Positions 22,680 through 51,363 of a stretch of DNA of 64,000 nucleotides are shown here, piece after piece. Location: NCBI RefSeq assembly GCF_039535475.1, contig NZ_BAAAXG010000028.1, positions 62,001 through 126,000 on the forward strand, given 5' to 3'. The notes beneath the pieces are model-generated. The model was not told the origin of the DNA and did not search any database. It saw only the letters and a list, made by a program, of their open reading frames with translations. This DNA comes from Streptomyces showdoensis. GTDB lineage: Bacteria > Actinomycetota > Actinomycetes > Streptomycetales > Streptomycetaceae. Position 1 is the stretch's first letter; the number at the start of each line of letters is the position of its first letter. Both the position numbers and the translations under genes were made by a program.

Positions 22680-22681
22680 AG

Positions 22682-24394: not shown

Positions 24395-24513
24395 CCTGTG
24401 ATTGTCGGACGGACGGCCCCGGGGTGTCCAGAAGGGCCCCGAATTCTCGGAGGCGCCCCGCCCACCTGCGCTGATACGGTCTGCCGATTCGACTACCAGG
24501 GGGACCCCCGTAC

Positions 24514-25470
24514 ATGACTGTTGTCGTCCGACCGCTCGCCGGACCCGACGAGCTCGACCTCTTCCAGCGTCTCGACTACGTGCTCGACCACGAGCTCGCC
24601 GAGGACCTGGCCACCGGCCGCCGCCGCCCCGACTGGATGTGGGTGGCGCTGCGCGGCGACCGTCTGCTCGGACGGATCTCGTGGTGGACCGGGCAGGAGG
24701 GCGCCGGCCCGCAGGCGCTCGACTTCTTCGACCTGGACCCGGCGCTCCCGGCGGACGAGGCGGCGGCGGTCGGCCTGCGCCTCCTGGAGACGGCGACCGC
24801 CGCCGTCGTCCCGGCGGGCGCGGCCCGCCCCGAGTTCGGCCGGTTCATACCGGCGGACTGGCGCGAGGTCCCGGAGACCCGCGCGGCGCTGGAGACGCTC
24901 TTCGGCGTGCTGACGGCCTCGGGAGCCCGGCCGCTGGTGGAGCGGCTGCGCCTGGAGTGGCGGGCGGGCGGGCCCGTGCCGGAGCCGGCCGGACGGCTGG
25001 TGTTCCGCCCGGTCCGGGACCGCGAGGACCTGCTCGCGCTGATGGCCCCGGTCATGGAGGGCACCCTCGACGCGCACGGGCAGGCGGACCTCGCGAGCGG
25101 CCTCTCGCCGCGCGAGGCGGCCGAGCTGCACTACGACGAGGAGCTCGCGCACTTCTCGACGCCCCGTGACTGGTGGCGGATCGCGGAGCTGCCGGGGACC
25201 GGGGAGCCGGTCGGCTTCGTCGTCCCCGCGCGCAACAACTACCACCCGATCATCGCGTACCTGGGTGTTCTGCCGGCCCATCGCGGCCACGGCCACATCG
25301 ACGAGATCCTCGCCGAGGGGACCCGGATCCTCGCCGCCGAGGGCGTGCCCACCATCCGGGCCGCCACCGACCTGGGCAACGTCCCCATGGCGAAGTCCTT
25401 CGCCCGCGCGGGGTACGTGACCTTCGAGCGCGCGGTCAACTACGTGTGGGACGCCCCGCCGCAGCACTGA
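24514..25470 (+). CDS. GNAT-family N-acetyltransferase
   Basis: 318-residue protein with a C-terminal GNAT domain. The acetyl-CoA loop is visible as AYLGVLPAHRGHGHIDEIL (motif A, RGxGxxD variant), followed by the ATDLGNVPMAKSFARAGYV strand. The first half is a degenerate GNAT-like copy, as in tandem-GNAT proteins. Substrate unknown. ATG 24514 has AGGGGGA upstream. Lies 90 bases before treZ on the same strand. Confidence 0.85.
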   Translation: MTVVVRPLAGPDELDLFQRLDYVLDHELAEDLATGRRRPDWMWVALRGDRLLGRISWWTGQEGAGPQALDFFDLDPALPADEAAAVGLRLLETATAAVVPAGAARPEFGRFIPADWREVPETRAALETLFGVLTASGARPLVERLRLEWRAGGPVPEPAGRLVFRPVRDREDLLALMAPVMEGTLDAHGQADLASGLSPREAAELHYDEELAHFSTPRDWWRIAELPGTGEPVGFVVPARNNYHPIIAYLGVLPAHRGHGHIDEILAEGTRILAAEGVPTIRAATDLGNVPMAKSFARAGYVTFERAVNYVWDAPPQH

Positions 25471-25559
25471 CGCAAGATCGCCGATGCGTCGGGCGGGGCG
25501 TGCCTCCGGCTGCCAGGATGGTCCCGTAGCCGTTGACCAGTCGACGAGGGGACCGTCCC

Positions 25560-27311
<1,752 letters not shown>

Positions 27312-33693: not shown

Positions 33694-34563
33694 TCAGCCG
33701 TCGGACGCGCACCGTGCGGTTTCGGTCAACGGGCCCGCCCTGCGGCCGACTTCGCGCGGGGTGGGGATGAGGGTACCGTACCGGGAGATGGTTGACGCGG
33801 GCGGCGGCACCGGGCCCCGCTCGAAGAGCCGTACCGGCGGGGTGCACACCGCGCAGGTCCCGCAGGGCCCGGCACCGGGCTCCTCCCCTCCCCCGGTCCC
33901 CCCTCCCCCGGCCTCCTCACCGGAAGGCGCAGGAGGCACCGAGGGCACGGAAGGACGGGAGGGCGCCGCCCCGGGCTCCCTCCCGGGCGCCGCCGCGAGC
34001 TCCCTCCCGGGCGCCGCCGCGAGCTCCTTCCCGAGCGTCGCCCCGGGCTCCCTCCCGAGCCGCACCGCCTCCCCTTCGCCCACGCCCTCCTCCGGCTCCC
34101 CCGCCGCCTCCGCCTCCAGCCCGTCCAGGGCCGCGCCCAGCTGCCGCAGGGCCTCGCGGGCCGCCGCGATCAGCCCGCCGAGCTCCTCGCCGGCCGCCGG
34201 GTCCGGGCGGACGAGGAGCCGGTTGCGGACCAGCACCCGGTGGATCGTGGTCCGCGAGGGCGCGTCCGGCACACCCAGCCGGTCGAGGGCCCCGCGCAGC
34301 CGTCCCGCACCCCAGTCCGGGTGCCGTTCGCGCAGCGAACAGATCAGCGCCTCCACCGCGGGCGGGATCCGCGCCGGGCTCTCGTGCGGGCGCCGGGACC
34401 GGTCCGCCAGACCGCCCTCGCCGTGCGCCGCGTACCGCTTCCGCCAGGCGTAGAGCGTCTGGCGCGAGACGCCGTGGCGGCGCGCGACCTCGGCGACGGG
34501 CCGCCCGGCGAGCACCTCCCGCACGGCCCGGTGGCGCTGTGCCGCGCTCACGTGTCGGGTCAC
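33694..34563 (-). CDS. HTH protein derived from an IS481-type transposase
   Basis: 289 residues. The N-terminal 125 are a transposase-style double HTH (VAEVARRHGVSRQTLYAWRKRY; IPPAVEALICSLRERHPDWG; RTTIHRVLVRN). The DDE catalytic core that should follow is absent. Instead there is a short leucine-rich helix (LIAAAREALRQLGAALDGLEAE), an 8-residue tandem repeat, and a C-terminal CGTCAVC cluster. It looks like a domesticated DNA-binding protein, possibly metal- or redox-responsive through the cysteines (inference). AGGGAGGGG precedes GTG 34563. It ends 31 bases from the VOC gene and lies divergent from the peptide locus, whose promoter it could control. Confidence 0.8.
   Translation of the reverse strand: MTRHVSAAQRHRAVREVLAGRPVAEVARRHGVSRQTLYAWRKRYAAHGEGGLADRSRRPHESPARIPPAVEALICSLRERHPDWGAGRLRGALDRLGVPDAPSRTTIHRVLVRNRLLVRPDPAAGEELGGLIAAAREALRQLGAALDGLEAEAAGEPEEGVGEGEAVRLGREPGATLGKELAAAPGRELAAAPGREPGAAPSRPSVPSVPPAPSGEEAGGGGTGGGEEPGAGPCGTCAVCTPPVRLFERGPVPPPASTISRYGTLIPTPREVGRRAGPLTETARCASDG
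33973..34060. repeat. 24-bp tandem repeat (3.7 copies) in HTH gene
   Basis: Units at 33973-33996, 33997-34020, 34021-34044 and a partial unit from 34045. The first two are nearly identical (GCTCCCTCCCGGGCGCCGCC core). In frame on the minus strand they encode repeats of the type GRELAAAP / GREPGAAP. Confidence 0.85.
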
Positions 34564-34646
34564 CGATCCCCCTCCCTCGCGTCGGAGCGCTCCGGTCCGA
34601 CTCCCGTCTAACGGTGTAGACCACGGCACGTTTCAGCGATGTCTCC

Positions 34647-34699
34647 GTTCCGCCGGAACCATGTCAGGAATGTCGTGGAACTCCTGACACGGGACCCCC
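34647..34699. promoter_or_regulatory. Two inverted repeats upstream of the peptide gene
   Basis: A 13-base perfect palindrome, GTTCCG-C-CGGAAC (34647-34659), is followed by an 8-bp inverted repeat, TGTCAGGA (34672-34679) with TCCTGACA (34692-34699), around a 12-base spacer. Both lie between the divergent HTH gene and the precursor promoter. They are good candidates for operators; the second could also fold as RNA. Confidence 0.55.
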
Positions 34700-34743
34700 T
34701 CCAAAACCCCCGGGAAGGTAATTGGACATTAAACCTTGCAGCG

Positions 34744-34773
34744 TTGACACCGCTCCGCGCCGCTGACGAGTAT
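34744..34773 (+). promoter_or_regulatory. Candidate sigma-70-type promoter for the peptide operon
   Basis: A consensus TTGACA at 34744-34749 is spaced 18 bases from GAGTAT (34768-34773). It lies in an unusually AT-rich stretch, about 60 bases before the precursor start. TTGACA is perfect; the -10 is only partly consensus. Confidence 0.5.
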
Positions 34774-34801
34774 CGGTGCCGCTCCGCACCGTCGTACGGA
34801 G

Positions 34802-34819
34802 TTCCTGAAACACCAGGAA
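34802..34819 (+). promoter_or_regulatory. Leader hairpin before the precursor ribosome-binding site
   Basis: TTCCTG (34802-34807) pairs with CAGGAA (34814-34819) around a 6-base A-rich loop, ending two bases before the GGGAGG Shine-Dalgarno. It shares the CAGGAA half-site with the upstream inverted repeat, so it may be a second operator or an RNA stem affecting translation. Confidence 0.45.
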
Positions 34820-34831
34820 ACGGGAGGGAAC

Positions 34832-34978
34832 ATGGAAGAGCGCAATTCGCTGCGGCCGGACGAGATCGAGGTCTCGCCGTCCCCGATCGCGACGCCCGAC
34901 TTCGTGATCTCGGACAACGACCCGACCGACCCGGTCTTCGTGATCGCCGACAACGACCCGTCGGACCCGGTGATCTGA
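34832..34978 (+). CDS. Putative RiPP precursor peptide with two tandem DNDP repeats
   Basis: 48-residue acidic peptide, ATG 34832 with GGGAGG seven bases upstream, TGA 34976-34978. The first 23 residues (Glu/Ser/Pro-rich, for example LRPDEIEVSPSPIATPD) read as a leader. They are followed by two 12-residue copies, FVISDNDPTDPV (DNA 34901-34936) and FVIADNDPSDPV (34937-34972), then a final Ile. The copies differ only by Ser/Ala and Thr/Ser. No Cys, Gly-rich or signal-peptide features. The dioxygenase gene begins four bases after the stop, so the two are coupled. Duplicated cores plus a dedicated enzyme, peptidase and exporter suggest a ribosomally made modified peptide. Not recognised as a known class. 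Confidence 0.72.
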   Translation: MEERNSLRPDEIEVSPSPIATPDFVISDNDPTDPVFVIADNDPSDPVI

Positions 34979-34982
34979 CCGC

Positions 34983-36212
34983 ATGGCCGTGACCCACGGC
35001 GGGTGGAAGGCTGCGCCCCAGGCGCAGCCTTCGCTCGGCCTCAGCAGCCTCCTGTCCCCCGTGACCCCCGACGAGTTCAAGCGCTCCTACTGGGAACGGG
35101 AACCCCTGGTCGTCCACCGGGAGAATCCCGACCATTACGCGGCTTCACTGAGTTTCCGCGATGTCGACCATATTCTTTCGACTTCCAGCGTCCGTTCCTC
35201 CGAACTCAAGGTCGTGGTGAACGGGCAGGAGATTCCGCTCGTCGAAATGGCCGCGTCGGGACCCGGCGGTCCGAGCAATGGACTCGAAGTCCTCTACGAC
35301 CTCTACCGGCGCGGCTCGACCGTCGTCTTCAAGTTCCTGCACGAGCGCTGGGAGCCGCTCGGCCGACTGTGCCGCACACTGTCGGGCGAGTTCAGCGCCG
35401 GGTTTCAGGCGAACGCCTATCTGACCCCGGCCGGCGCCCAGGGCCTCACCAGCCACTACGACACCCACGACGTCTTCGTGCTCCAGGTGTGGGGGTCGAA
35501 GCACTGGCGGCTGTACGAGTCGCCGGACGAACTGCCGCTGGCCAACCAGCCGTACCGCAGGCCGAAGGACGGCCCCGGCGCCCCGGTCCGCGAGTTCGAC
35601 CTGCGGCCCGGCGACCTGATGTACATGCCGCGCGGCACCGTGCACGACGCCACCTCCAACGACGAGGCCTCGCTGCACATCACGCTCGGCGTGCTGCCGG
35701 TGCTCTGGTCGACGGTGCTCAAGGACGCCCTGGACCGGGCCATCGAGGGCGACCCCCGCTACCGGGCCGCCCTGCCGCCGGGCTTCGCGCTCGACCCGGA
35801 GCTCCGGGCCGGGGCCGCCGCGACCCTCGCGGAGCTGCTGGCCTCGGTCGCCGGCTCCGTCGACCCCGCCGACCTCGTCGAACGGGCCGCCAGCCGGGCC
35901 CTGGTGGGCCGCCGTCCGGTCCTGGACGGACACCTGCTCGACCTGGAGGGGCTGCGCACGCTCGGCCCCGACACCCGGGTGCGGCGCCGGGCCGAGCTGC
36001 TGTGGTCGCTGCGGCCGGAGGACACGGGCCTCCAGCTGGAGTTCCACGGCAAGGTGGTGCGCCTGCCGGCCAGGATCGAGCCCGAGCTGCGGTACGTGCT
36101 CGACGCCCGGGCCCCGTTCACGGCCCGCGACGTCACCGGCCGGCTCGACGTCGAGGGCCGCCTGGTCCTGGTCCGCCGGCTGGTCCAGGAGGGTCTGCTG
36201 ACCCTGGCGTGA
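34983..36212 (+). CDS. JmjC/cupin-4 family Fe(II)/2-oxoglutarate dioxygenase
   Basis: 409-residue protein related to ribosomal oxygenases (YcfD/ROX group). The cupin core spans about 30-245, with iron ligands His158 and Asp160 in TSHYDTHDVF and His221 in MPRGTVHDATS. Lys173 in GSKHWRLYE fits the 2-oxoglutarate-binding position. A dimerisation helix region and winged-helix-like C-terminus (RDVTGRLDVEGRLVLVRRLV) follow. Family chemistry is hydroxylation of Arg, His, Asn, Asp or related side chains. Because the gene is coupled to the peptide gene, the DNDP repeats are its likely substrate (inference). It ends in a 20-bp-stem terminator, so precursor plus enzyme form a two-gene transcript. Confidence 0.85.
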   Translation: MAVTHGGWKAAPQAQPSLGLSSLLSPVTPDEFKRSYWEREPLVVHRENPDHYAASLSFRDVDHILSTSSVRSSELKVVVNGQEIPLVEMAASGPGGPSNGLEVLYDLYRRGSTVVFKFLHERWEPLGRLCRTLSGEFSAGFQANAYLTPAGAQGLTSHYDTHDVFVLQVWGSKHWRLYESPDELPLANQPYRRPKDGPGAPVREFDLRPGDLMYMPRGTVHDATSNDEASLHITLGVLPVLWSTVLKDALDRAIEGDPRYRAALPPGFALDPELRAGAAATLAELLASVAGSVDPADLVERAASRALVGRRPVLDGHLLDLEGLRTLGPDTRVRRRAELLWSLRPEDTGLQLEFHGKVVRLPARIEPELRYVLDARAPFTARDVTGRLDVEGRLVLVRRLVQEGLLTLA

Positions 36213-36217
36213 GCCGA

Positions 36218-36267
36218 CCGGGTCCGGCCCGGCCGGGTCCGGGCCGCCCCGGCCGGGCCGGACCCGG
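36218..36267. terminator. 20-bp-stem terminator
   Basis: Perfect 20-bp inverted repeat (36218-36237 with 36248-36267) and a 10-base loop. It starts six bases after the dioxygenase stop and lies between convergent genes. One of the two longest perfect stems in the window. Confidence 0.85.
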
Positions 36268-36300
36268 CCACGCCCTCGGCCCGGACCCGGCCGCGGACCC

Positions 36301-38250
36301 CTACTCCTCGTACCGGCCGCCGAGGTGTTCCGCGAGGAAGCGTTCGGCGGCCGCGTGGAACGCCAGTCGGTTGCGGGGCCGGACGAAGCCGTGCCCCTCG
36401 TCGGGAAAGAGCAGGTACTCATGGGGAACGCCGCTCCTGCGCAGCGCGGCGACCAGCTGCTCCGACTCCTCGCGCCGCACCCGTGGGTCCCGTGCCCCCT
36501 GGCCGATGAGCAGCGGGATCCGGATGCGGTCGGCCGCGAACAGCGGGGAGCGGGCGCGCAGGAACTCCGCGTCGGTCTCCGGCGAGCCGACCCGGCGGCG
36601 CAGCATCGCCGCCATCGGCCCCCAGGTCGCGGGCACGGACTCGATGAAGGTGAGCAGCGAGGAGGGAGCGGCGACGGCGACGGCGCACCGGTAGTCGCCG
36701 GGCGTGAAGGCCGCCCCGGCGAGCGCCGCGTAGCCGCCGTAGGAGCCGCCGTAGATCGCGACCCGGTCCGGGTCGGCGTGCCCGAGGCCGACGGCGTGGC
36801 GGACGGCGTCCTGGAGGTCGTCCTGCATCCGTCCGCCCCATTCGCGGTCGCCGGCGCGGGTGAACTCCTTTCCGTAGCCGGTGGAGCCGCGGAAGTTGAC
36901 CTGGAGGCAGAGGTAGCCGCGGTCGGCGAGCCATTGCGCCTCGGCGCGGAAGCCCCACTGGTCGCGGGTCCACGGTCCGCCGTGGACGCTCAGGACGGTC
37001 GGCAGCCGGTCGCGGCCCGCGCCCGGCGGGAAGGTGAGGTAGCCGTGGACGCGCAGCCCGTCGCGGGCGGCGAAGGAGAAGGGTTCGACCCGGGCGAGCG
37101 GGCGCCCCTCCAGGGCCGGGAGATGGCTGAACAGGTACTCGGTGCGGGCCGCCCGGCCGGCCCCGCCCCGGTGCAGCACCCGGAAACCGGCGGGCGCGTC
37201 GTCGGTGTTGTGCTGGACCAGCCAGTGCCGGTCGGCGCGGTCGCGGCCCAGCACGCTCACGTCGCCGGGGGCGGCGGCCCGCAGCGCCGCGAAGTCCGCC
37301 GCGAGGGACGGGTCGAGGAGTTCGAGGTCGTTGCGGGCGCGCCGGACGAGGACGAACTGCGGCTCCCCGGTGACCGGGTGGGCGCCGACGCCCTCGACGT
37401 CGTGCGCCGGGTCCGCGTACACCTCCTCCGTCGCGCCGGTCACCGTGTCCAGGCGCAGCAGCCGGGCGGTGTCGGAGCCCTCGGAGGAGAGCAGCAGCAG
37501 CGTCCGGCCGCCGGTGGTGAAGCCGAACGGGCGCAGCGCCGGGGCGTCCTCGGGCCCGGCCCGGTGCAGCTCGCGCCACGGCGCCGCCGCACCGTCCCGC
37601 ACGAGCAGGCTGACGGAGCCGTCCGGGTGCGGCCGCAGCGCGCCGCGCACGAGCAGCCGGTCGTCGGCGATCCAGCGGCTGAAGCCCTCGTCGACGGCGG
37701 CGAGTTCGAGCTCCCCGGTCGCCGGGTCGAGCCGGTAGGCGTCGTGCACGGCCGGGTCCCGCAGGTTGAGCCCGACGAGCAGCCGGTCGGGGCGGCGCGG
37801 GTCGAGGGAGACGATCCTGGCCTGGACCCCCTCGTAGGGGGTGAGGTCGCGGGCCGAGCCGGGCCCCTCGGCGGGGTCGACGGCGTACAGGTGGGTGTTC
37901 TCGTCACCGTCCCGGTCCTGGACGTACAGGATGTGCCGCCCGTCGCCGGACCAGGCGAAGGCGCGGACGCCGCGGCCGGCGTCGGCGGTGACGGGGCGGA
38001 AGTCCCGCGCGCGCCAGGGCCCGGCGTGCACGTTGAGGACGCCGGAGGCGGCGGGCGCGAGGAAGGCCAGCCGCTCGCCGTCGGGGGCGAGGGCGGGGCT
38101 CATGCGGTGCGGGTTGCCGAAGAGCACGGATCGCGGGATGAGGGGCGCCGGGGACGGCGTCGCCGGAGTGGGCGGTGCGGCCGGAGTGGGCGGTGCGGCC
38201 GGCGCGTTCGACGTGCTCGTCGCGGTGGGCAGGTCCGGCGTGTTCGTCAT
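36301..38250 (-). CDS. S9-family prolyl oligopeptidase-type peptidase
   Basis: 649-residue cytoplasmic serine peptidase. A Pro/Ala-rich N-terminus is followed by a WD40-like beta-propeller (about 45-370), then an alpha/beta hydrolase domain with Ser503 in GGSYGG, Asp588 in GARDPRV and His620 in DEGHGF. S9 enzymes cut short peptides, often after proline, and FlaP-type members remove leaders of class III lanthipeptides. Here the nearby Pro-rich precursor makes leader or repeat processing plausible (inference). No signal peptide is seen. ATG 38250 preferred; 53 bases separate it from the divergent exporter gene. A general peptidase role remains possible. Confidence 0.9.
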   Translation of the reverse strand: MTNTPDLPTATSTSNAPAAPPTPAAPPTPATPSPAPLIPRSVLFGNPHRMSPALAPDGERLAFLAPAASGVLNVHAGPWRARDFRPVTADAGRGVRAFAWSGDGRHILYVQDRDGDENTHLYAVDPAEGPGSARDLTPYEGVQARIVSLDPRRPDRLLVGLNLRDPAVHDAYRLDPATGELELAAVDEGFSRWIADDRLLVRGALRPHPDGSVSLLVRDGAAAPWRELHRAGPEDAPALRPFGFTTGGRTLLLLSSEGSDTARLLRLDTVTGATEEVYADPAHDVEGVGAHPVTGEPQFVLVRRARNDLELLDPSLAADFAALRAAAPGDVSVLGRDRADRHWLVQHNTDDAPAGFRVLHRGGAGRAARTEYLFSHLPALEGRPLARVEPFSFAARDGLRVHGYLTFPPGAGRDRLPTVLSVHGGPWTRDQWGFRAEAQWLADRGYLCLQVNFRGSTGYGKEFTRAGDREWGGRMQDDLQDAVRHAVGLGHADPDRVAIYGGSYGGYAALAGAAFTPGDYRCAVAVAAPSSLLTFIESVPATWGPMAAMLRRRVGSPETDAEFLRARSPLFAADRIRIPLLIGQGARDPRVRREESEQLVAALRRSGVPHEYLLFPDEGHGFVRPRNRLAFHAAAERFLAEHLGGRYEE

Positions 38251-38303
38251 GGAGCACGTCCTGTCGTGTGGGGCCATGCGGCGGGCGAGCGGGAGGAGTG
38301 CTG

Positions 38304-40532
38304 ATGCGGCAGATGGTGTTCACGGCCCGGGAGGCGGCGAGCAGTGGCGGCAGCGGTCTGACCGGCCCCGTCGACTTCCCCGTCCCGGGCGGCCCGGAGG
38401 GGTCCGGGCGGCGCGGTCCGGTGGCCGCGCTGCGGGGCGCGGGGCGCGCGACGGCCCGTACGGTGGCCGGGCTCGGCCGGGTGCTGGCGCTGGTGTGGGC
38501 GGCGAGCCCGGGGCTCACGACGGCGCTCGCGCTCTCCACGGTCCTGGTCGGGCTGGTCCCGGCGGCGGTCGCGATCACGGCGCGGCTGCTCGTCGACACG
38601 GTGGTCCGGGGCGCCGCGCTCCACGGCTCGGGCCGCCCCGACCGCATCGGGCTCGCCGTGGACCTCCCCGGATTCACCTGGCACCCGCCCGCGACGACGA
38701 CCGTGACGGCCCTGGTGGCGCTGGCCGCCGTGCAGTGCGGGGTGTTCGCGCTCAGCGCGCTCGCGACGGCGGTGCGGAGCATCGCCCAGCAGCTGCTGCA
38801 GGAGCGGGCGACGCAGAGCGTGCAGGTGCGGGTGATGGAGCACGCGGGCCGGCTGCCGCTGTCGTTCTTCGAGGACTCCGCCTCGTACGACCTGCTGCGC
38901 CAGGCCCAGCAGGAGGCGTCGACCCGGCCGGTGATGATGATCGGCGGGGCGTTCACGCTGCTCCAGCACACGGTGACCTTCGCGAGCATGGTGGGGCTGC
39001 TGTTCGGGCTCGGGCCGCTGGTCGCGGTGGTGGCGCTGCTCGCGCCCGTCCCGGCCTTCGTGTCCGACGCGCGGTACGGGATGCGCGGCTTCCAGGTGAC
39101 GCTGTGGTCCTCGCCGATCCGGCGCCGGATGGAGTACCTGTCGCGGCTGGTGTCGACCGACGCGTACGCGAAGGAGATCAAGGTCTTCGGCCTCGCGCCG
39201 TTCCTGACCGAGCGCTTCCGGCTGCTCGGCGCGGCGGCCTACCGCGGCCTGCGCGGCGTGGTGACGGCCCGCCACCTCGTCGGCAACGCCTGGTCGTTGC
39301 TGACGACGCTGGCCGGGGCGCTGACGTACCTGTACGTGGCGCTGCAGGCGGTGCGCGGGCGGCTGAGCCTGGGCGACCTCATCCTCTACACCTCGGCGGC
39401 GACCGCCGTGGCCACCGCCGTCCAGGGCGTGTTCGGCGGCGCCTCCGGCATGTACGAGCACCATCTCTACCTGCGGAAGCTGTACGAACTCCTCGCCGTC
39501 GGCACCGGTTCCGAGGGCGGCCGGCCGCTGGAGGGCCCGGTGCGCGGCCATCTCGTCCTGGAACACGTCACGTTCCGCTACCCGGGCGCCGAGCGGCCGG
39601 CCCTCGACGACGTCTGCCTGGAGATCCCGGCCGGCGCCACGCTCGCCGTCGTGGGCCGCAACGGGGCCGGCAAGTCCACCCTGATCAAGCTGCTCTGCCG
39701 GCTGTACGAGCCGGACTCCGGCCGCATCCTCCTGGACGGCACGGACATCCGCGAGCTGGACCCGGAGGCGCTGCGGCGCCAAGTGGCGGCCATGTTCCAG
39801 GACTTCGTCACCTACCAGGCCACGGTCGCCGAGAACATCGGGCTCGGCGACCTGCCCGGCCTCGAGGACCCCGAGCGGATCGCCGAGGCGGCCGGGCGCG
39901 CCGGGGCCGCCGGGCTCGTCGAGCGGCTGCCGCAGGGGTACGGGACGGCGCTCGGCAAGTGGTTCGACACCGGGGTCGAGCTGTCCGGGGGCGAGTGGCA
40001 GAAGGTCGCGCTGGCGCGGGCGTTCATGCGCCGCGGGGCGCTGCTCGTCCTGGACGAGCCGACGTCGGCGCTCGACGCGGAGGCGGAGCACGAACTGTTC
40101 GCCCGGCTGCGGGAACTGGCCGCGGGCCGCACCACCGTCTACATCTCGCACCGCTTCTCGACCGTGCGGCGGGCCGACCTGATCGTCCTGATCGAGGACG
40201 GCCGGGCCACCGAACAGGGTACGCACGAGGAGCTGATGCGACTGGGCGGCTCGTACGCGCGCCTCTTCGCGCTCCAGGCGGCGGCGTACACGGACGCGCC
40301 CGGGGCGGGCGGGGCGAGCGGCGCGAGCGGGGCAGGTGAGGCGGGCGGGGCCGTCGCTCCGGCGGGTGCCGCGGCGCCCGGGCGGGCGGGGGCCGCCGTG
40401 CCCGTCACGGGACCTGGGCCAGGCGCCGCTCCTGGAACCGCCCCTGGAACCGGCCCCGGACCGGGCCCCGGTGCGGCCAAGGCCGCCGCCATCGCGGCCG
40501 CGCTCGCGGCGAAGGGGAAGATCGTCCCGTAA
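38304..40532 (+). CDS. ABC exporter with fused membrane and ATPase domains
   Basis: 742-residue type I half-transporter. A membrane domain (about 55-400, six segments) precedes the ATPase: Walker A GRNGAGKST, Q-loop MFQDF, signature LSGGEWQK, Walker B LLVLDEPTSALDA, H-loop YISHRFSTVR. There is no N-terminal C39 peptidase, so cargo must be trimmed elsewhere, fitting the adjacent S9 peptidase. A 90-residue Gly/Ala/Pro tail is low complexity. GGAGGAG precedes ATG 38304. Similar transporters export lanthipeptides and other RiPPs; the link here is by neighbourhood. Confidence 0.88.
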   Translation: MRQMVFTAREAASSGGSGLTGPVDFPVPGGPEGSGRRGPVAALRGAGRATARTVAGLGRVLALVWAASPGLTTALALSTVLVGLVPAAVAITARLLVDTVVRGAALHGSGRPDRIGLAVDLPGFTWHPPATTTVTALVALAAVQCGVFALSALATAVRSIAQQLLQERATQSVQVRVMEHAGRLPLSFFEDSASYDLLRQAQQEASTRPVMMIGGAFTLLQHTVTFASMVGLLFGLGPLVAVVALLAPVPAFVSDARYGMRGFQVTLWSSPIRRRMEYLSRLVSTDAYAKEIKVFGLAPFLTERFRLLGAAAYRGLRGVVTARHLVGNAWSLLTTLAGALTYLYVALQAVRGRLSLGDLILYTSAATAVATAVQGVFGGASGMYEHHLYLRKLYELLAVGTGSEGGRPLEGPVRGHLVLEHVTFRYPGAERPALDDVCLEIPAGATLAVVGRNGAGKSTLIKLLCRLYEPDSGRILLDGTDIRELDPEALRRQVAAMFQDFVTYQATVAENIGLGDLPGLEDPERIAEAAGRAGAAGLVERLPQGYGTALGKWFDTGVELSGGEWQKVALARAFMRRGALLVLDEPTSALDAEAEHELFARLRELAAGRTTVYISHRFSTVRRADLIVLIEDGRATEQGTHEELMRLGGSYARLFALQAAAYTDAPGAGGASGASGAGEAGGAVAPAGAAAPGRAGAAVPVTGPGPGAAPGTAPGTGPGPGPGAAKAAAIAAALAAKGKIVP

Positions 40533-40672
40533 CCAGGCCCGTAACCAGGCCCGTGACCGGGCCGGTGACCGGGTCCGCGACCCGGTCCGTGACCAAGCCT
40601 GTGAACCGGCCCGTGACCAAGCCTGTGAAACGGCCCGTGACCAAGCCTGTGAAACGGCCCGTGACCGGGCTC
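40529..40672. repeat. 12-bp minisatellite (about 12 units)
   Basis: Consecutive 12-base units of the type GTGACCAAGCCT and GTGAAACGGCCC run from the last codon of the exporter to the terminator stem. The later units form a clean 24-bp period at 40589-40612, 40613-40636 and 40637-40660. Early units are degenerate (GTAACCAGGCCC, GTGACCGGGCCG). Non-coding on both strands as far as can be judged. Confidence 0.88.
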
Positions 40673-40689
40673 CCGTCGGCCCGGTCACG
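40660..40689. terminator. Hairpin terminator between exporter and sensor kinase
   Basis: 11-bp perfect stem CGTGACCGGGC (40660-40670) with its complement (40679-40689) and an 8-base loop. It includes the last minisatellite unit and overlaps the 3' end of the kinase gene, serving both converging transcripts. Confidence 0.7.
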
Positions 40690-41809
40690 CCGGCACCGTG
40701 ACCCGGACGACCAGCCCGCCGTCCGCCGGGGCGGTGAGGTCGACCGTGCCGCCGTGCGCGAGGGCGATGGAGCGGACGATGGACAGGCCGAGGCCCACGC
40801 CGTCGCCGCTGCGGGAGAGCCGCCGGAAGGGTTCGAGCAGGCTGTCGGCCTCCCCCGCCGGCACGACCGGCCCGGTGTTGCGCACGGTGAGCGCCCCGTC
40901 CGGCCCGGTGGCGACCTCGACCGACCCGCCGGGCACGTTGTGGCGCACGGCGTTCTGCACGAGGTTGCCGACGAGCTGGTGCAGCAGGACCGGGTCCCCG
41001 GTCACCGGCAGCGGCCGCAGGTCGAGGGCGAGCCGCAGCCCCGCCGTATGGATCGCCGGACGGCTCTGCCCGACCGCCTCGGCGGCGATCCGCGCCAGGT
41101 CGGCGGGCTCCCGCCGGTCGAGCCCCCGGTCGCTGGTGGCCAGGGTCAGCAGCCCCTCGATGAGCCGTTCGCTGCGCCGGTTGGTCTCCAGCAGCTCCTC
41201 CTGGATGCGGGGCAGGTCCTCCGGGCGGGCCCGGCCGAGCCGGATCTGGATCGCGGCCCGCTGCACGGCGAGCGGGGTGCGCAGCTCGTGGGAGGCGTTG
41301 GCGACGAAGCGGCGCTGCGCCTCGAAGGCCGCGTGGAGCCGGTCGAGGAGGGCGTCGAAGGTGTCGGCGAGGTTCTTCAGCTCGTCGTCGGGCCCGGTGA
41401 GCCCGATGCGCTCGTGGAGGGTGGCGGCGGACAGCCGCTGCGCGGTCGCGGCGATGGTGTGGAGGGGCCGCAGGGCGCGGCCCGCGACGAGCCAGCCGAG
41501 CGCCACGGAGACGACGAGCATGACCAGCAGGGCGAGCAGCGACATCATCAGCAGCTGGTCGAGGGCGTCCTCGCGGAGCCGCCGGGCGAGGGCGGCGACC
41601 TGCGCCTTGGACAGGGAGGGGGCGGTGTCGGCGTACGGGGCGTCCTTGGGGAGCACGAGGACGGTGGTGCCGGTGAGGCGTTCGCGGAAGAGCAGGTAGG
41701 TGAGGCCGAGCAGGAGCAGCCCGGTGACGGAGAAGAGTCCGCTGTAGAGCGCGGTGAGACGCAGCCGCAGGGAGCGCTGGCCGGGCCGGGGGACGCGGAG
41801 GGCGGTCAC
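40685..41809 (-). CDS. Two-component sensor histidine kinase
   Basis: 374-residue membrane kinase. Two hydrophobic segments (about 18-40 and 88-112) flank a short external loop of about 45 residues. Then HAMP (about 112-165), HisKA with the phospho-acceptor His in NASHELRTPLA, and HATPase with NLVQNAVRHN and GDGVGLGLSIV. GTG 41809 follows the response-regulator stop by eight bases. Signal unknown; the divergent MacB-type efflux operon is the likely target. Confidence 0.92.
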   Translation of the reverse strand: MTALRVPRPGQRSLRLRLTALYSGLFSVTGLLLLGLTYLLFRERLTGTTVLVLPKDAPYADTAPSLSKAQVAALARRLREDALDQLLMMSLLALLVMLVVSVALGWLVAGRALRPLHTIAATAQRLSAATLHERIGLTGPDDELKNLADTFDALLDRLHAAFEAQRRFVANASHELRTPLAVQRAAIQIRLGRARPEDLPRIQEELLETNRRSERLIEGLLTLATSDRGLDRREPADLARIAAEAVGQSRPAIHTAGLRLALDLRPLPVTGDPVLLHQLVGNLVQNAVRHNVPGGSVEVATGPDGALTVRNTGPVVPAGEADSLLEPFRRLSRSGDGVGLGLSIVRSIALAHGGTVDLTAPADGGLVVRVTVPA

Positions 41810-41817
41810 GGGGGCCC

Positions 41818-42471
41818 TCAGATCCGGTAGCCGCTGCCGGGCAGCGTCTCGATGAGCTGGGGTTCGCCGAGCTTGGCGCGCAGCTTGCTCATGGTGATGC
41901 GGACGGCGCTGGTGAAGGGGTCCGCGTTCTCGTCCCAGGCGCGTTCGAGGAGCTCCTCGGTGGAGACGACGGCCCCTTCGGCGGCGAGCAGGACCTCCAG
42001 GACGGCGAACTCCTTGGGCGAGAGCCGCAGATAGCGTCCGTCGCGGAAGGCCTGGCGGCGCGGGGTGTCGAGGGTGATCCCGGCCCGTTGGAGGACGGGC
42101 GGCAGGGCGCGGGTGGCGCGCCGCCCCAAGGCCTGCACGCGGGCGACGAGTTCGGGGTACTCGAAGGGCTTGGACAGGTAGTCGTCGGCGCCGAGCGCGA
42201 ACCCGGCGACGAGGTCGGTGGTCTGGCCCGCCGCGGTGAGCATGAGGATCCGGGTGCGGGCCTCGGAGGCCACGACCTCGCGGCAGACCTCGTCCCCGTG
42301 GGTGCCGGGCAGGTCGCGGTCGAGGACGAGGACGTCGTAGTCGTTGACGGTGAGCCGTTCGAGGGCCGCGTCGCCGTCGAGGGCCACGTCGACGGCCATG
42401 CCGTGGGCGCGCAGCCCCTCCGCGACCAGCTCCGCGAGCATCCGTTCGTCCTCCGCCACCAGTACCCGCAT
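41818..42471 (-). CDS. OmpR-family response regulator
   Basis: 217-residue regulator: receiver domain with phospho-acceptor Asp51 in VLVLDRDLPG, conserved Lys in DDYLSKPF, and a C-terminal winged helix (about 125-217) ending ETLPGSGYRI. First gene of the two-gene operon with the kinase. Divergent from the efflux operon across a 179-base region, which should hold its binding sites. Confidence 0.94.
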   Translation of the reverse strand: MRVLVAEDERMLAELVAEGLRAHGMAVDVALDGDAALERLTVNDYDVLVLDRDLPGTHGDEVCREVVASEARTRILMLTAAGQTTDLVAGFALGADDYLSKPFEYPELVARVQALGRRATRALPPVLQRAGITLDTPRRQAFRDGRYLRLSPKEFAVLEVLLAAEGAVVSTEELLERAWDENADPFTSAVRITMSKLRAKLGEPQLIETLPGSGYRI

Positions 42472-42650
42472 GTGCGCGTCCTTCCGTCGTCACTCGTCAC
42501 GCCTCGGCCCGCGGACCACGGCCCTCGGCCCGTACGGCACTTCGTGATACCCGTCGCGATGTTTCGCCACCGTATGCGGGTACGGAGACGGCCCGGCAAC
42601 CCCGCCCTCGGTACATCTGTCACCACGGAGCACCGAGGAAGGGAGCGCAC

Positions 42651-43157
42651 ATGGCGATCACGGGACGGATCCGGCACGGGGCCCTGGCGGTGGCCGCCCT
42701 CGCGGCCCTGGCCACGGGGTGCGGCGGCGGGGGCGGCGACACCCCGGGGGTGGCGAGCGGCGGTGGGACCAGGTCGGTGTCGGCCTCCGCCTCCGCGTCT
42801 CCCGGCGGCAGCCGGCAGGACCAGCTCGTGGCCTTCGCGGGCTGCATGCGCGAGCACGGCATCCAGGTGGCGGACCCGGCCCCCGGCGACGAGAACGTCC
42901 AGCTGCCGCCGGGCACCAAGGGCGACGGGCGGACCCAGAAGGCGCTCGCCGAGTGCCAGGGGCTGCTGGGCGCGGGGGGCAAGGAGGGGACGGACGCCAC
43001 GGCCCAGGACAAGGCCGTCCGGCTGGCCCGGTGCCTGCGGGAGAATGGCCTCGACGTGGCGGACCCGGAGCCGGGCAAGCCGCTGCAGCTGAGCGGCGCG
43101 GCGAACGACCCGAAGGCGCGGGCCGCGATCACCGAGTGCAGGGCGTCGGTCCGGTGA
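42651..43157 (+). CDS. Lipoprotein with two Cys-containing repeats
   Basis: 168-residue lipoprotein: signal ending LATGC (lipid Cys about 24), a Ser/Gly linker, then two similar segments. The first has [18 protein letters not shown] and the second [18 protein letters not shown], each followed by a distal Cys, so it looks like an internally duplicated domain with paired cysteines. First gene of the efflux operon; GAGGAAGGGAG upstream of ATG 42651. It overlaps the next gene by four bases. Function unknown. Confidence 0.85.
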
Positions 43158-44350
43158 AGGAGCCGCTGACCCTCCCCGCCGACGAGGAACACGGGAATCA
43201 CGGGGACCACCGGGACCACGGGGACCATGGCGACCACGACGAGCACGACGAGCGCGCGGCGCGGCGGCCCGGGCGGGGCCGCCGGGGGTTCCTCCTCGGC
43301 GCCGCCGTGCTGGTCCTCGGCGCGGTCGCGGCCGGCGCGGTCGTGCTGTCCTCCCGTACGGACGGTCCGGCCGCCCCGGCCTCCGGACCGCGCACGGGCA
43401 CCGCGACGGTGGTCCGCACCGACCTCGTGCAGAGCGAGCGGATCGACGGCACGCTCGGCTACGCCGGCGCCTACACGGTGACCGCGCCCCGGGCGGGCGG
43501 CATCGTGACCTGGCTGCCGGACGTCGGCGTGACGATCGCCCGCGGGCAGCGCGCGTACGCCGTGGACGGCGTCGCCGTGCCCCTGTTCTACGGCTCGACC
43601 CCGCTCTACCGCCCCCTGGAGGAGGGGGTGGACGACGGCCCGGACGTACGGGTCGTCAAGCGCAACCTGAAGGCGCTCGGGTACGGGGACGGGCTCGCCG
43701 ACGACGCCCGTTTCACGTCCGGCACGGCGGAGGCGGTACGGGACTGGCAGGAGGACCGGGGCCGCGAGCGCACCGGGAAGGTGGCCCCCGGCGACGTGCT
43801 GGTGGAGCCGGGCGCCGTGCGGGTGACGGAGATCCCGGGCATCGTCGGGGCCCCGGCCGAGGGTCCGCTGCTCCGCCTCTCCGGCACCCGGCGGGTGGTG
43901 ACGGTGGACATGCCGGTCGGGCGCCAGCAACTGGCCAGGGGCGGCGCCGCCGTGCGCGTACGGCTGCCCGGCGGGAAGGCGACGGACGGCAAGGTCTCCC
44001 GGGTGGGCACGGTGGCCCGGGCCGCGGCGACGGGCGGCCCGGACCGGCAGGCGTCGCAGGGCGCGGCGGGCGAGGCGACCGTGCCGGTCGAGGTGACGCT
44101 GTCGAAGCCCGCGGACGCGGGGGCGCTGGACGGCGCCCCGGTCCAGGTCGACTTCACGAGCGAGCGCCGCGACGACGTGCTCGCCGTCCCGGTCCCGGCG
44201 CTGCTGGCCCTGGCGGAGGGCGGGTACGCGGTGGAGACCCCGGAGGGCCGGCTGGTGCCGGTGACTCTGGGAGTGTTCGCACAGGGACGGGTCGAGGTCG
44301 CGGGCGCGGGACTGCGGGAGGGAATGCGGGTGGAGGTGCCACTGCCGTGA
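43154..44350 (+). CDS. Membrane-fusion/HlyD-type protein with peptidoglycan-binding domain and His-rich N-terminus
   Basis: 398-residue protein. Residues 13-31 carry seven histidines exactly three residues apart (HxxHxxH pattern). A single membrane segment follows (about 46-66, [20 protein letters not shown]), then an adaptor region with a PG_binding_1-like segment ([16 protein letters not shown], ...[10 protein letters not shown]) and beta-rich lipoyl/barrel domains to the C-terminus. It would link the ATPase/permease pair to the envelope. The His tract precedes the membrane segment, so it should be cytoplasmic, where it could sense or bind metal. GTG 43154 overlaps the lipoprotein stop. Confidence 0.86.
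43190..43246. repeat. 9-bp repeat encoding HxxHxxH tract
   Basis: Seven CAC/CAT codons at a strict 9-base period separated by GGGGAC-like spacers (for example CACGGGGAC). Codons differ slightly, so the tract has diverged since its expansion. Confidence 0.85.
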
Positions 44351-45225
44351 CGGAGCACGTGAGGAGCGGCGCGGCCGGGTCCGCGGCCATCGGGGCGGCC
44401 GGCGCGACCGGGTCCGCGGCCATCCGGGCGGCCGGCGCGGCCGAGCCCGTGATCGCCCTGGAGGCGGTCTCCAAGACGTACCCCGGCGGCGTCCGCGCCC
44501 TGCACGGGGTCGACCTGACCGTCCGGGAGGGCGAACTCCTGGCCGTGGTGGGCCGTTCGGGGTCGGGCAAGTCGACGATGCTGCACCTGATGGGCACGCT
44601 GGACGCCCCGAGCGCGGGGCGGGTGCTGCTGCGCGGCCACGACGTGGCGACGCTGACCGACCGCCGGCTCTCGGCGGTGCGGGCGCGCTGGATCGGCTTC
44701 GTCTTCCAGCAGTTCTTCCTGTCGCCCGGCCGCAGCGCCGTCGACAACGTCGCCGAGGGGCTGCTCTACCACGGCATCCCGGCCCGGCGGCGCCGGGCGC
44801 TCGCCGTGGCCGCGCTGCGCCAGGTGGGCCTGGGGCACCGGCTCGACCACCGGCCGCACGAGATGTCGGGCGGCGAGCGGCAGCGGACGGCGATCGCCCG
44901 GGCCGTCGCGATCCGCCCTTCGGTGATCCTCGCCGACGAACCGACCGGCAACCTGGACTCGGCGGCGGGGGCGGGCGTGCTCGACCTGCTGCGGGAGCTG
45001 AACGCGCGGGGGACGACGATCGTGGTCATCACGCACGACCCGGGGCTCGCGGCGGTCCTGCCGCGCCGGGTGGAGGTGCTGGACGGACGGATCCGCTCCG
45101 ATTCGGCCGGGGAGCGGCCGCCCGCGACCGCCGCCCGGGCCCACCCCCAGGCCGACACACAGGCCCGCCCCCGGGCCCGGACCCCTGACCCGGCCCCGGC
45201 CCCGGCGCCGGGGGTGATGCCGTGA
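44347..45225 (+). CDS. MacB-type ABC transporter ATP-binding protein
   Basis: 292-residue ATPase of the LolD/MacB group. Walker [10 protein letters not shown], signature MSGGERQR, Walker [15 protein letters not shown]-loop VITHDP. An Ala/Gly-rich N-terminal extension (about 30 residues) and a Pro/Ala-rich C-terminal tail are added to the usual core. GTG 44347 overlaps the fusion-protein stop by four bases, and the gene itself overlaps the permease by four. Confidence 0.93.
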
Positions 45226-46427
45226 GGACCCCGACCCCCCTCCCCCGCCCCGCCCGGATGCCGCCGGCCGACGTCCTGCGCGTGGGCCTGGTGGGAATGC
45301 GGGCCCGGCCCACCCGGGCGGTGCTGTCGGCCCTGGGCATCGCGATCGGGATCGCCGCGATGGTGGCGGTCCTCGGCATCAGCAACGCGGGCCAGGCCGA
45401 GCTGATGAACCGGATCAGCAGGCTCGGCACCAACCTGCTGACGGTCTCCCCCGGCCGGGACCTGTTCGGCGACGAGGCGCGGCTGCCGAAGGACGCGGTC
45501 GAGATGGTCCGCCGCATCGGCCCGGTGCAGTCGGTGACCGCGACCGGCGCGCTCCCGGGCGTGACGGTGCGCCGCACCGACCGCATCGACCCTCTCGCCG
45601 GCGGCGGGATCGGCGTCAGCGCGGCCCGCACCGATCTGCTCGGCACGATCGGCGGCACGGTACGGGAGGGCGAGTTCCTCAACGGGGCCACCGGACGCTA
45701 CCCGGCGGTGGTCCTGGGCTCGGTGGCCGCCCAGCGCCTCGGCATCGACCGGACGGGCCGTCAGGTCTATCTGGGAGAACGGTGGTTCACCGTCACCGGG
45801 CTCCTCGACCCGGTGGCCCTGGCGCCGGAGATCGACCGCTCGGCCCTGATCGGCTGGGAGGCGGCGGGCACCCTGTTCGGCTTCGAGGGACATCCGACGA
45901 CGGTGTACGAGCGTTCCCCCGACGAGTCGGTGGAGGCGGTCCGCGCGGTCCTGGCGGCGACGGCGAACCCGGAGAGCCCGCAGGACGTCAAGGTCAGCCG
46001 CCCGTCCGACGCGCTGGAGGCGCAGCTGGCGGCGAAGTCCGCGTTCACGTCGCTCTTCCTCGGGCTGGGTGCGGTCGCGCTGCTCGTCGGCGGCGTCGGG
46101 GTGGCCAACACGATGGTCATCTCCGTCCTCGAACGCCGCCCGGAGATCGGCCTGCGCCGCTCGCTGGGTGCGGGCCGGGGCCAGATCCGCCTCCAGTTCC
46201 TGACTGAGTCCGTGGCGCTCTCGGGCGCGGGCGGCACGGCCGGCGTGGCGCTGGGCGCGCTGGTCACGGCGGGCTGGTCGCTGTCTCAGGGCTGGCCGCT
46301 GGTACTGCCGGTGGACATCCTGCTGGCGGGCGTGACGGCGGCGGCCCTGATCGGCACGGCGGCGGGCCTCTACCCGGCGGGCCGCGCGGCCCGGCTGACG
46401 CCGACGGAGGCGCTGGGGGCGGTGTGA
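45222..46427 (+). CDS. MacB/FtsX-type ABC transporter permease
   Basis: 401-residue permease with one N-terminal membrane helix, a large MacB_PCD extracytoplasmic domain (about 55-260) and three C-terminal helices (FtsX domain), ending [11 protein letters not shown]. Together with the preceding genes it forms a mechanotransmission-type exporter. Start GTG 45222. Its last 164 bases are antisense to the extended C-terminus of the SMI1/KNR4 gene. Confidence 0.92.
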
Positions 46428-49329: not shown

Positions 49330-51363
49330 TCAGAACGCCTGCCGCAGAGCGTTCCGTTCCGCTTCGCCCAGGTGCGCCAGGTTGGCCGCACGGACCTCCT
49401 CGATGAACTGCCGGGTCTTGTTCTGGAACTCCCCGATGCTTCCGGCCTTGCCGCCCCAGCGGAACTCCATCGGGACACCCCCTTGGCCACGAGCCTGGGC
49501 TCCCATCTGCGGCGACGGCTGGTCGGGGCGGGCGAGCGGCCGGCCGGGCCTGACGGTCTCGAAGCCCGTCTCGCCACGGAACAGCGCCCTCAGCAGCTGC
49601 CTGGTGCCCGCCCTCGGATCGCTCGCGTCCCCGTGGATCGGACCACGGCTGTCGGAGGTGCCCATGCCCACCTTGTACGTCTGCGTCCAGTAGGCGGTGG
49701 AGGTCTGGGGAACGGCGTTGTGGAACCAGTCCGCGATGTGATCGATCAGCTGCGGGGACGCGGTGACGGCCCCGGCGTCGCCCAACGCCGAGCTGTGGAC
49801 CTGGGCGAGGTCCTCCAGCTTGACCAGGAGCGGGACCGCGTTCTTGGTGGTGCTGGTCGCACCGAACAGCTGGGTCTGGTTCATGGCGTTTCCGATGACG
49901 TACGAGAGACCGAGGCTCAGCAGTCCGTGGACCTGCCTGCGCTGGAACTCGTCCATGCCGCCCAACTGCTGCTGGAAGGCCGGGTCGTCGAAGAGCGTCG
50001 TGATGTAGTGGGGCACCGCCGCCGCCGCGTCCCCGCGTGCCCGGAGGGCGTCCACCGCACCGGGAGCAGCGCCCTCCGCGCCGAGCCGGGTGGCCTGCGT
50101 GGCGTACAGGTCCGGCATCCCCGAAGGCAGCACACCGGCCGTGGCCTGGATGCTCAGCGACACGTCGATGGCGTTGGCGAAGGCCTCGCGCTCCGCCTTC
50201 ACGGCGTTGTAGATGTCGTCGCCCAGCCACTGCCGCAGGGCCTGGTCGGGGAATCCCGTGAGGTACTGGCTGCCGGGCAGGGGCTGCATCCCGACACGCG
50301 GCTGTCCGGCGAAGATCGCGCCGATGTGCTGGCTGATGCTGTCCAGCTGGTGTGTGAACATCCGGTCGGACCCGGCCGCCATCTCGTCCAGGGGATGGCT
50401 GACGTACTCCAGGTTGCTGACCGACACGTATCCCGACGGATCCGAGACGATCTTCTGATTGCGCTGGAGCCCCGCCCGCGCGATAGCGAGGTACAGGTTC
50501 CTTCCGTGCCGCTGGAGCGGGTTGTGGTCGGTGGTCAAGGACCACCCGTCGCCGCTTCTGTCGAGGACTTGGGTCGCATAGGGCAGGCCACCGAAGAACA
50601 GCGTGTTGATCGCTCCCATGGCCTGCGCGTCGACCCCGGGGTGGGTCGCCAGACGGGCGTCGGGCGCGACGTACTCGTAGCTCGGCGCGCTCACCTCGAC
50701 CTCGAACCCGACGAGGCGCTGCACCGCCCGGGCGGAACCGCCCGTCGGCGCGGACGCTTTCTGGACCGCGTGCTCGTGTCCGGGCTCGGACGGCACCGGG
50801 CCGGACATGACCCGGGTGGCGTTGGCTTCCGCCTCGCGCTCGAAGCGGTCGGAGGGGTCGGACACCTTCAGCCCGCTCCCGTCGTCCGAGCCGGCGACCG
50901 GGCCCTGCCGCTGCTGGATCACATGGGTCAGTTCATGGGCGAGGGTGTGCTTGTCGCCGCCGCCCTCGCCGATCACGACGTGACTCCCGGACGTGTAGGC
51001 GCGGGCGCCGACCTCCGCCGCGGACGCCTTCGCCGCCGCGTCCGTGTGGACGCGCACGTCGGAGAAGTCCGCCCCCAGCCGTGCCTCCATCTCGTCGCGC
51101 GTGGCGCTGTCGAGGGGGCGTCCGGACGTCCGCAGGACGTCGTGGACGGCGGACCGCTGCACGTTCTGCTGGTGACCGCAGCCGGCGGAGTGCTGGTGCT
51201 GGTCGGGCTGGGCCCAGGCGTGCCCGGCCTGGCGCAGCATCTGGACGACCGCGGCGTTCCCGGCGGCGGCCTGCAGGCCGGACAGGCCCGTCGGCCGCTG
51301 CTTCGCGGGGGCACGTACGGCGTCGGCCGCCCGTTCGGTCGCGGCGTTCTCGTGGTCACGCAA
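49330..51363 (-). CDS. DUF4157 (eCIS-core) domain protein, orphan toxin-like
   Basis: 677-residue protein. DUF4157 spans about 82-155: RPLDSATRDEMEARLGADFS, VRVHTD and the metalloprotease-like HTLAHELTHVIQQ (His143, Glu144, His147). This domain typically caps cargo of extracellular contractile injection systems, but no sheath, tube or baseplate gene is in the window. The C-terminal 450 residues are a passenger. VGFEVEVS, DGWSLTTDHNP and LEYVSHPLDEM resemble the amidoligase pattern (ExE, W..D, ExVSxP), a tentative match. Start TTG 51363 is uncertain. No obvious partner gene. Confidence 0.8.
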   Translation of the reverse strand: MRDHENAATERAADAVRAPAKQRPTGLSGLQAAAGNAAVVQMLRQAGHAWAQPDQHQHSAGCGHQQNVQRSAVHDVLRTSGRPLDSATRDEMEARLGADFSDVRVHTDAAAKASAAEVGARAYTSGSHVVIGEGGGDKHTLAHELTHVIQQRQGPVAGSDDGSGLKVSDPSDRFEREAEANATRVMSGPVPSEPGHEHAVQKASAPTGGSARAVQRLVGFEVEVSAPSYEYVAPDARLATHPGVDAQAMGAINTLFFGGLPYATQVLDRSGDGWSLTTDHNPLQRHGRNLYLAIARAGLQRNQKIVSDPSGYVSVSNLEYVSHPLDEMAAGSDRMFTHQLDSISQHIGAIFAGQPRVGMQPLPGSQYLTGFPDQALRQWLGDDIYNAVKAEREAFANAIDVSLSIQATAGVLPSGMPDLYATQATRLGAEGAAPGAVDALRARGDAAAAVPHYITTLFDDPAFQQQLGGMDEFQRRQVHGLLSLGLSYVIGNAMNQTQLFGATSTTKNAVPLLVKLEDLAQVHSSALGDAGAVTASPQLIDHIADWFHNAVPQTSTAYWTQTYKVGMGTSDSRGPIHGDASDPRAGTRQLLRALFRGETGFETVRPGRPLARPDQPSPQMGAQARGQGGVPMEFRWGGKAGSIGEFQNKTRQFIEEVRAANLAHLGEAERNALRQAF

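Follow-up and report, generated by a model that had tools for sequence, protein, structure and literature searches.

We analysed a 64,000-nucleotide stretch of the Streptomyces showdoensis genome (RefSeq assembly GCF_039535475.1, contig NZ_BAAAXG010000028.1, positions 62,001 to 126,000 of the forward strand; hereafter the window, with positions counted from its first letter), in which the gene of a short aspartate-rich peptide immediately precedes that of a JmjC-type oxygenase. This pair is the core of a candidate pathway for a ribosomally synthesized and post-translationally modified peptide (RiPP), in which the oxygenase, with a C-terminal domain resembling a RiPP recognition element (RRE), would act on the peptide. 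The pair and its flanking signals are as follows.

34744..34773, plus strand: promoter-like TTGACA-N18-GAGTAT, with TTGACA at 34744-34749 (sequence layout)
34832..34978, plus strand: putative precursor peptide of 48 amino acids (aa), a leader with S-L-R-P-D-E-I-E-V followed by two tandem FVI(S/A)DNDPxDPV-like units (conserved in all type-I relatives compared)
34983..36212, plus strand: JmjC_2 oxygenase, NO66/MINA53-like, 409 aa, with iron ligands H158, D160 and H221 by homology (Pfam, alignment, fold)
35964..36209, plus strand: C-terminal winged-helix domain of the JmjC protein, RRE-like (predicted fold)
36218..36267, no strand assigned: terminator-like inverted repeat with a 20-bp stem and a 10-nt loop, between the convergent JmjC and S9 peptidase genes (sequence)

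The first-pass annotation had proposed a 48-residue peptide gene ending four bases ahead of a JmjC dioxygenase gene, and both open reading frames (ORFs) were recovered with that spacing. To these we compared the loci with the same precursor type (type I, defined below): the window, L001 (S. fulvorobeus), L003 (Streptomyces sp. CBMA291), L020, L021 (probably Phaeacidiphilus oryzae), L022 (probably Streptacidiphilus jiangxiensis) and L068 (plasmid pSCL4 of S. clavuligerus). All seven keep the precursor ATG, a purine-rich stretch resembling a ribosome-binding site, the ORF length and the 4-base gap to the JmjC ATG, except that the JmjC start in the deposited pSCL4 annotation lies 87 bases downstream. 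Third codon positions are the most variable among close precursor pairs (3, 0 and 9 differences at codon positions 1, 2 and 3 between the cores of the window and L001), and the core is better conserved than the leader. Because start codon, ribosome-site-like stretch, length and gap are kept, variation falls on third positions and the core is conserved, we conclude from sequence comparison that the 48-aa peptide is a real coding sequence. The shared TTGACA promoter and the terminator described earlier were also found: the former has an 18-base spacer to GAGTAT, a TTGACA-N18-xAxxAT layout occurring upstream of the peptide in 5/7 type-I loci, and the arms of the latter (36218-36237 and 36248-36267) are complementary at 20/20 positions.

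The peptide had been described as carrying a duplicated DNDP motif. Two tandem units are indeed present, but the asparagine is not obligatory: DPDP replaces DNDP in the second unit of the S. clavuligerus precursor and in L069 (probably Thermomonospora umbrina), and the conserved unit is therefore D-x-D-P-x-D. The same variants weaken an Asn-containing DNDP as the modified motif. We infer the position of the border between leader and core. In a word-based search against 5.8 billion proteins, seven matches to the peptide were listed, including the window's own and one from a Pseudonocardiaceae metagenome-assembled genome with the core FVISDNDPTDPVIVISDNDPSDPVI; ten precursors tried against NCBIfam gave no match.

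The JmjC protein matches PF08007 (JmjC_2, 5.6e-27), the single match to this family in the S. showdoensis genome. Its HxD...H iron site is intact, as had been claimed, with H158, D160 and H221 invariant across 34/34 aligned rows. The protein is modelled as a full-length NO66/MINA53 relative with an end-to-end fold match; the closest solved structures are MINA53 and NO66, with YcfD matching more weakly, and the JmjC plus C-terminal winged-helix architecture of these ribosomal oxygenases is present. The predicted fold of the C-terminal domain also resembles RREs, such as those of MccB and PbtF, which fits a RiPP pathway, where leader-binding domains of this kind are frequent though not essential; searches of this domain by sequence gave no PqqD match and no notable match in the PDB.

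To place the pair in a wider context, we searched for JmjC homologues in sampled genomes. They occur in 15/394 genomes of the family at E<=1e-60 and in 56/394 of the class at E<=1e-40, the S. showdoensis genome being counted in both. The initial proposal would have failed had homologous JmjC genes lacked the peptide; it adjoins the JmjC gene in all fetched loci with homologues of 67-93% identity (L001, L002/L022, L003, L020/L006, L021/L007, L063, L064, L068), and most homologues of 29-51% identity likewise have an Asp-rich, often repetitive peptide upstream. These peptides were counted with a script that requires, near the JmjC start, an ORF of 40-170 aa, a Shine-Dalgarno-like stretch and a C-terminal half with at least 14% Asp+Asn, criteria chosen after peptides had been seen. 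An Asp-rich peptide was detected at 50/56 class loci, 9/14 further family loci and 4/5 further genus loci, versus 2/209 control genes from the same loci, one of which is a genuine displaced family precursor. The class count varies with the threshold (27/56 at 0.20, 40/56 at 0.17 and 50/56 at 0.14, with 1, 2 and 2 of 209 controls), while the family and genus counts stay the same throughout; at 0.20 without the Arg/Cys filter, 28/56 class loci were positive, and both positive controls (2/209) were displaced family precursors. An earlier, strict Asp/Asn criterion had given 5/7, 8/15 and 10/32 in three identity bands (control 1/204) and had overlooked DGGA-type peptides, later spotted by eye.

Six class loci were missed at 0.14 (L069, L070, L049, L059, L045, L087). 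The Cys filter removed a real precursor in L069, the DPDPTD peptide of L070 did not satisfy the Shine-Dalgarno pattern, and L049 and L059 lie at contig ends, an Asp-rich fragment being visible in L059. Among the family misses, precursors are displaced in L026, L027 and L032, and none was recognised in L024 and L028. The precursors of L069, L070, L026, L027 and L032 were identified by eye.

The peptides fall into four types: I, DxDPxD; II, a leader SLxxxDIxV with DDNDxNDSG-like cores; III, DGTDGD/DSTDG; and IV, DGGADGGA/HDGGADG. A leader motif, L.{1,2}[DES][DE][IM].[VTSI], is found in 35/64 precursors (shuffled maximum 2). On an enzyme tree of 77 rows, six labels need 15 changes against a shuffled mean of 38.4 (0/200 as low), and the eight type-I rows group with 100/97 support. 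Precursor types thus cluster on the enzyme tree, although kinship alone would also cluster labels. The labels of L068, L001, L070, L026, L027 and L032 were assigned by hand, and the script labels of L031 and L107 look wrong. A tandem pair of precursor genes precedes a single JmjC gene in L030 and L066/L081. In L082 (G880), the JmjC gene is seemingly split in two and no precursor lies close to it; either the system has decayed or the assembly is wrong. S. yangpuensis has two cupin genes 0.9 kb apart, with no precursor in its incomplete annotation.

The surroundings of the pair were compared across types, with neighbour genes called by a crude gene caller. On the type-II side, a same-strand ABC half-exporter gene lies within 4 kb after the JmjC gene in 11/14 loci (not L023, L024 or L081). 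In two type-II loci with displaced or extra precursors, L026 and L032, the ABC exporter has M16 peptidase genes next to it (one M16 was scanned against Pfam). In types III and IV, a same-strand ABC half-exporter was called in 0/13 annotated loci, L085 having a shorter opposite-strand match, and a sucrase/ferredoxin-like gene lies by the JmjC gene in 7/13 (L073, L074, L076, L079, L083, L084, L086). The one member tested, from L074, belongs to PF06999; such a gene could possibly supply electrons or iron to the oxygenase. PF08007 JmjC relatives encoded on plasmids have other neighbours: a GG-leader-like peptide in Dolichospermum (L110), a LanM in Pseudanabaena (L111) and a radical SAM/SPASM protein in Rhizobium etli (L112). 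None of the three small proteins translated beside them is Asp-rich. PF08007 enzymes may tailor several RiPP classes.

In the window, the pair belongs to a conserved cassette spanning 33694-46427, which also contains the following genes.

33694..34629, minus strand: IS481-transposase-like helix-turn-helix (HTH) protein with a conserved N-terminal HTH part, divergent from the precursor; putative regulator (Pfam, synteny)
36301..38277, minus strand: S9 prolyl-oligopeptidase-family serine peptidase with GGSYGG, whose true start may be internal (PF00326, 7.5e-47; syntenic)
38304..40532, plus strand: ABC half-exporter, membrane part plus ATPase, with ATG at 38304 (PF00005, 5e-31)
40685..41818, minus strand: HAMP sensor histidine kinase (HK) (Pfam, tblastn synteny)
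41818..42471, minus strand: OmpR-type response regulator (RR) (Pfam, tblastn synteny)
42719..44350, plus strand: adaptor with a peptidoglycan-binding domain, ORF as listed (conserved in relatives)
44347..45225, plus strand: ABC ATPase of a MacAB-type exporter (conserved in relatives)
45222..46427, plus strand: MacB/FtsX-type permease (partial match in L021 alone)

The S9 gene is convergent with the JmjC gene and divergent from the ABC half-exporter gene, the arrangement first described. The half-exporter's PF00664 match (5.9e-6) is slightly below that family's cut-off, and its Pfam matches include no peptidase domain. The genes originally named are conserved together, but the cassette is larger than the region first noted: it reaches leftward to an HTH gene and rightward through a two-component system to a MacAB-type exporter. 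By tblastn, HTH, precursor, JmjC, S9, ABC, HK and RR were found in 6/6 type-I loci tested (five organisms), and the annotated gene order of pSCL4 is identical to that of the window. Beyond the RR, the adaptor is conserved in L020, L021, L022 and L068, its relatives aligning from about residue 213 on, which places the true start probably near 43300; the MacAB-type ATPase is conserved in L020, L021 and L022 (cut by the locus end in the last). A piece of the permease was matched in L021, with no match in the other fetched stretches, most of which end before it. The HTH gene adjoins the precursor gene in 7/7 type-I loci compared, the conserved part being the IS481-transposase-like HTH, and resembles a transposase fragment that has been domesticated as a regulator.

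Copies of the cassette exist in Streptomyces, including one on plasmid pSCL4 of S. clavuligerus, in Streptacidiphilus and in a Phaeacidiphilus-like genome. L069 has JmjC (50% identity), ABC, S9 and HK genes in a different arrangement, together with adaptor and ATPase matches, an RR of 67% identity and the precursor MAETKTLKMDEIQVETAPAADPQFLICDPDPSDDCWIVCNPNYCY. Type-I JmjC occurs at >=86% identity in 3/392 same-genus genomes. An orthologue of the ABC half-exporter (E<=1e-150) is present in 2/91 same-genus genomes, and these two genomes, which both carry type-I JmjC, also hold an RR orthologue (89-100% identity, among the matches listed); G778, another of the 91, carries a type-II JmjC (47%) but no ABC orthologue. 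As the ABC and RR orthologues co-occur with type-I JmjC in few genomes, the cassette travels as a unit and is rare. For this copy, it is less likely that the HK/RR pair is just a common Streptomyces system, since the other RR matches listed in the 91 genomes are 61-69% identical; at 67%, however, the RR of L069 is no better than a paralogue.

Elsewhere in the window, an eCIS_core-domain protein (49330-51363, minus strand) and a 612-aa protein with a CdiA-CT-type bacterial RNase A domain at its C-terminal end (53526-55364, plus strand) possibly form a contractile-injection or toxin locus, and three alpha-amylase-family genes (15229-27311; CBM48, DUF3459) likely serve glycogen/trehalose metabolism.

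Several described systems share parts of this organisation. CinX hydroxylates Asp in cinnamycin, and FlaP is an S9-type leader peptidase of class III lanthipeptides; as in the window, a peptide cluster there contains an S9 prolyl-oligopeptidase-family gene. The annotated genes of 33694-46427 include neither a LanKC-type synthetase (class III lanthipeptides) nor an ATP-grasp ligase (graspetides). NO66 (RIOX1) and MINA53 (RIOX2) resemble the window protein in end-to-end fold, HxD...H site and C-terminal winged helix. According to PDB titles, they act as His hydroxylases on ribosomal proteins L8 and L27A, whereas the gene of the window enzyme has that of a small Asp-rich peptide next to it, and the type-I cores seen contain no His. 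Comparisons with RiPP systems draw on excerpts of PMC12710340, PMC12707348, PMC12257519, PMC13060819, PMC13097080, PMC10783134, PMC12636437 and PMC12871766. As described there, BipG, BpmG and PbsQ of biphenomycin-type RiPPs are JmjC or cupin-like 2-oxoglutarate (2OG)-dependent ornithine hydroxylases that tailor a ribosomal precursor alongside a multinuclear non-heme iron-dependent oxidative enzyme (MNIO), a B12-dependent radical SAM enzyme and an arginase. In the window, by contrast, the JmjC protein is the sole modifying enzyme recognised and the core lacks Arg; the 48-aa peptide has no FHAFRF-like motif, and a Pfam scan of the cassette gave no MNIO, B12-dependent radical SAM enzyme or arginase. 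Asp of RiPP precursors is hydroxylated by PesHI and PflD, which share the target residue but, as MNIOs, belong to another enzyme family, and by SmaO; the descriptions of these systems in the excerpts mention no Asp-repeat precursor. Bregman et al. 2025 (PMC12710340) report RRE-like domains fused to PF08007 in fish and algae, a combination that the window protein resembles by predicted fold, with bacterial homologues in 'RiPP-like genomic contexts'; in its section 6, neither a precursor family nor a substrate nor an actinobacterial clade is named. RiPPs, their tailoring by JmjC enzymes (2025 papers) and RRE-JmjC fusions are already known. Searches of an open-access library did not turn up the Asp-repeat precursors or their pairing with this JmjC clade, though one paper beyond the texts consulted may describe it; the family appears to be undescribed and is probably a new RiPP class. 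The first-pass annotation had likewise not recognised the combination as a described class, a view supported here for a family far wider than it proposed.

The analysis shows the order of the genes, conservation, co-occurrence, coding potential, the active-site residues, an RRE-like fold and the clustering of precursor types on the enzyme tree, and the odds of a RiPP pathway rest mainly on conservation and co-occurrence. A short precursor with a conserved leader and a separate core is present (a 48-aa ORF in 7 loci; leader motif as above), and the enzyme that would modify it is encoded with it. From these results we infer the relation of enzyme to substrate, the chemistry and its site, the cleavage site, export and a biological role for the product. 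We consider it likely that the JmjC enzyme acts oxidatively on Asp of the precursor, with beta-hydroxylation as the most probable reaction, and that the peptide is then trimmed by the S9 peptidase and exported by the ABC transporter. The RRE-like domain would bind the precursor leader via an LxPDEIEV-like strand, and the Fe(II)/2OG centre would oxidise, most likely beta-hydroxylate, Asp in both D-x-D-P-x-D units. The S9 peptidase would cut off the leader, cleavage ahead of the conserved [DEQ]F[VL]I at the core start being plausible, and the half-exporter would secrete the product; HK/RR may sense, and the MacAB-type exporter may provide efflux or self-protection.

None of Asn, His, Ser, Thr and Pro is present in the C-terminal half of all 64 precursors, which makes Asp the preferred target; Asp occurs in 64/64, although the selection criterion favours it. 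His as a universal target is weakened by its absence from 34/64 of these halves. The enzyme might instead modify the peptide otherwise than by simple Asp hydroxylation, through crosslinks or macrocycles or by further oxidation, e.g. to aminomalonate. Repeated D-x-D-P units would set Asp side chains at fixed spacing, and in a graspetide cluster SmaO/SmaX are described as taking Asp to hydroxyAsp and then aminomalonate. Crosslinking is a live rival because 2OG-dependent macrocyclisation in RiPPs is reportedly in print (Xia et al. 2025, going by its title). The JmjC RiPP enzymes described in the excerpts, BipG, BpmG and PbsQ, are however hydroxylases, and of the residue types counted only Asp occurs in every C-terminal half, which makes such chemistry rather unlikely.

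An Asp-rich, repetitive peptide could also act inside the cell, handling metal or serving enzyme or cell in a chaperone-like manner, hydroxylated or not. The type III/IV loci, with their sucrase/ferredoxin-like genes and no same-strand half-exporter called, would suit this role; the exporter gene that follows in type I and in most type-II-side loci speaks against it, and the M16 peptidase genes of L026 and L032 suggest processing, so that we regard it as improbable. That the enzyme is a ribosomal oxygenase acting on a ribosomal protein, with the small ORF regulatory or unrelated, would agree with its nearest solved relatives, MINA53, NO66 and more weakly YcfD. It is disfavoured by genome context, as type-I JmjC is an accessory gene, unlike a housekeeping ribosome modifier, and JmjC genes across the class have an Asp-rich neighbour peptide far more often than control genes do; precursor type also clusters on the enzyme tree. 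We consider this very improbable.

Beyond the type-I pathway, we tentatively propose, as a possibility, that RRE-fused, NO66-like JmjC proteins are the class-defining enzymes of a large undescribed RiPP class of Actinomycetes with Asp-repeat precursors (DxDPxD, DDNDxNDSG, DGTDGD, DGGADGGA). The products would be poly-hydroxyaspartyl peptides, perhaps Fe/Ca ligands or calcium-dependent antibiotics, and the eukaryotic NO66/MINA53, winged helix included, would have a common ancestry with such peptide-tailoring enzymes. Hydroxyaspartate is an iron ligand in siderophores.

If this is true, one enzyme family, present at E<=1e-40 in 56/394 class genomes, would mark an apparently overlooked class of ribosomal peptides, directly testable in that each precursor is encoded beside its enzyme. 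A defined substrate would be at hand for the bacterial proteins related to NO66 and MINA53, the human ribosomal oxygenases, and the winged-helix domain of the latter might be, in origin, a peptide-binding RRE module. Peptides rich in hydroxyaspartate would add a new scaffold.
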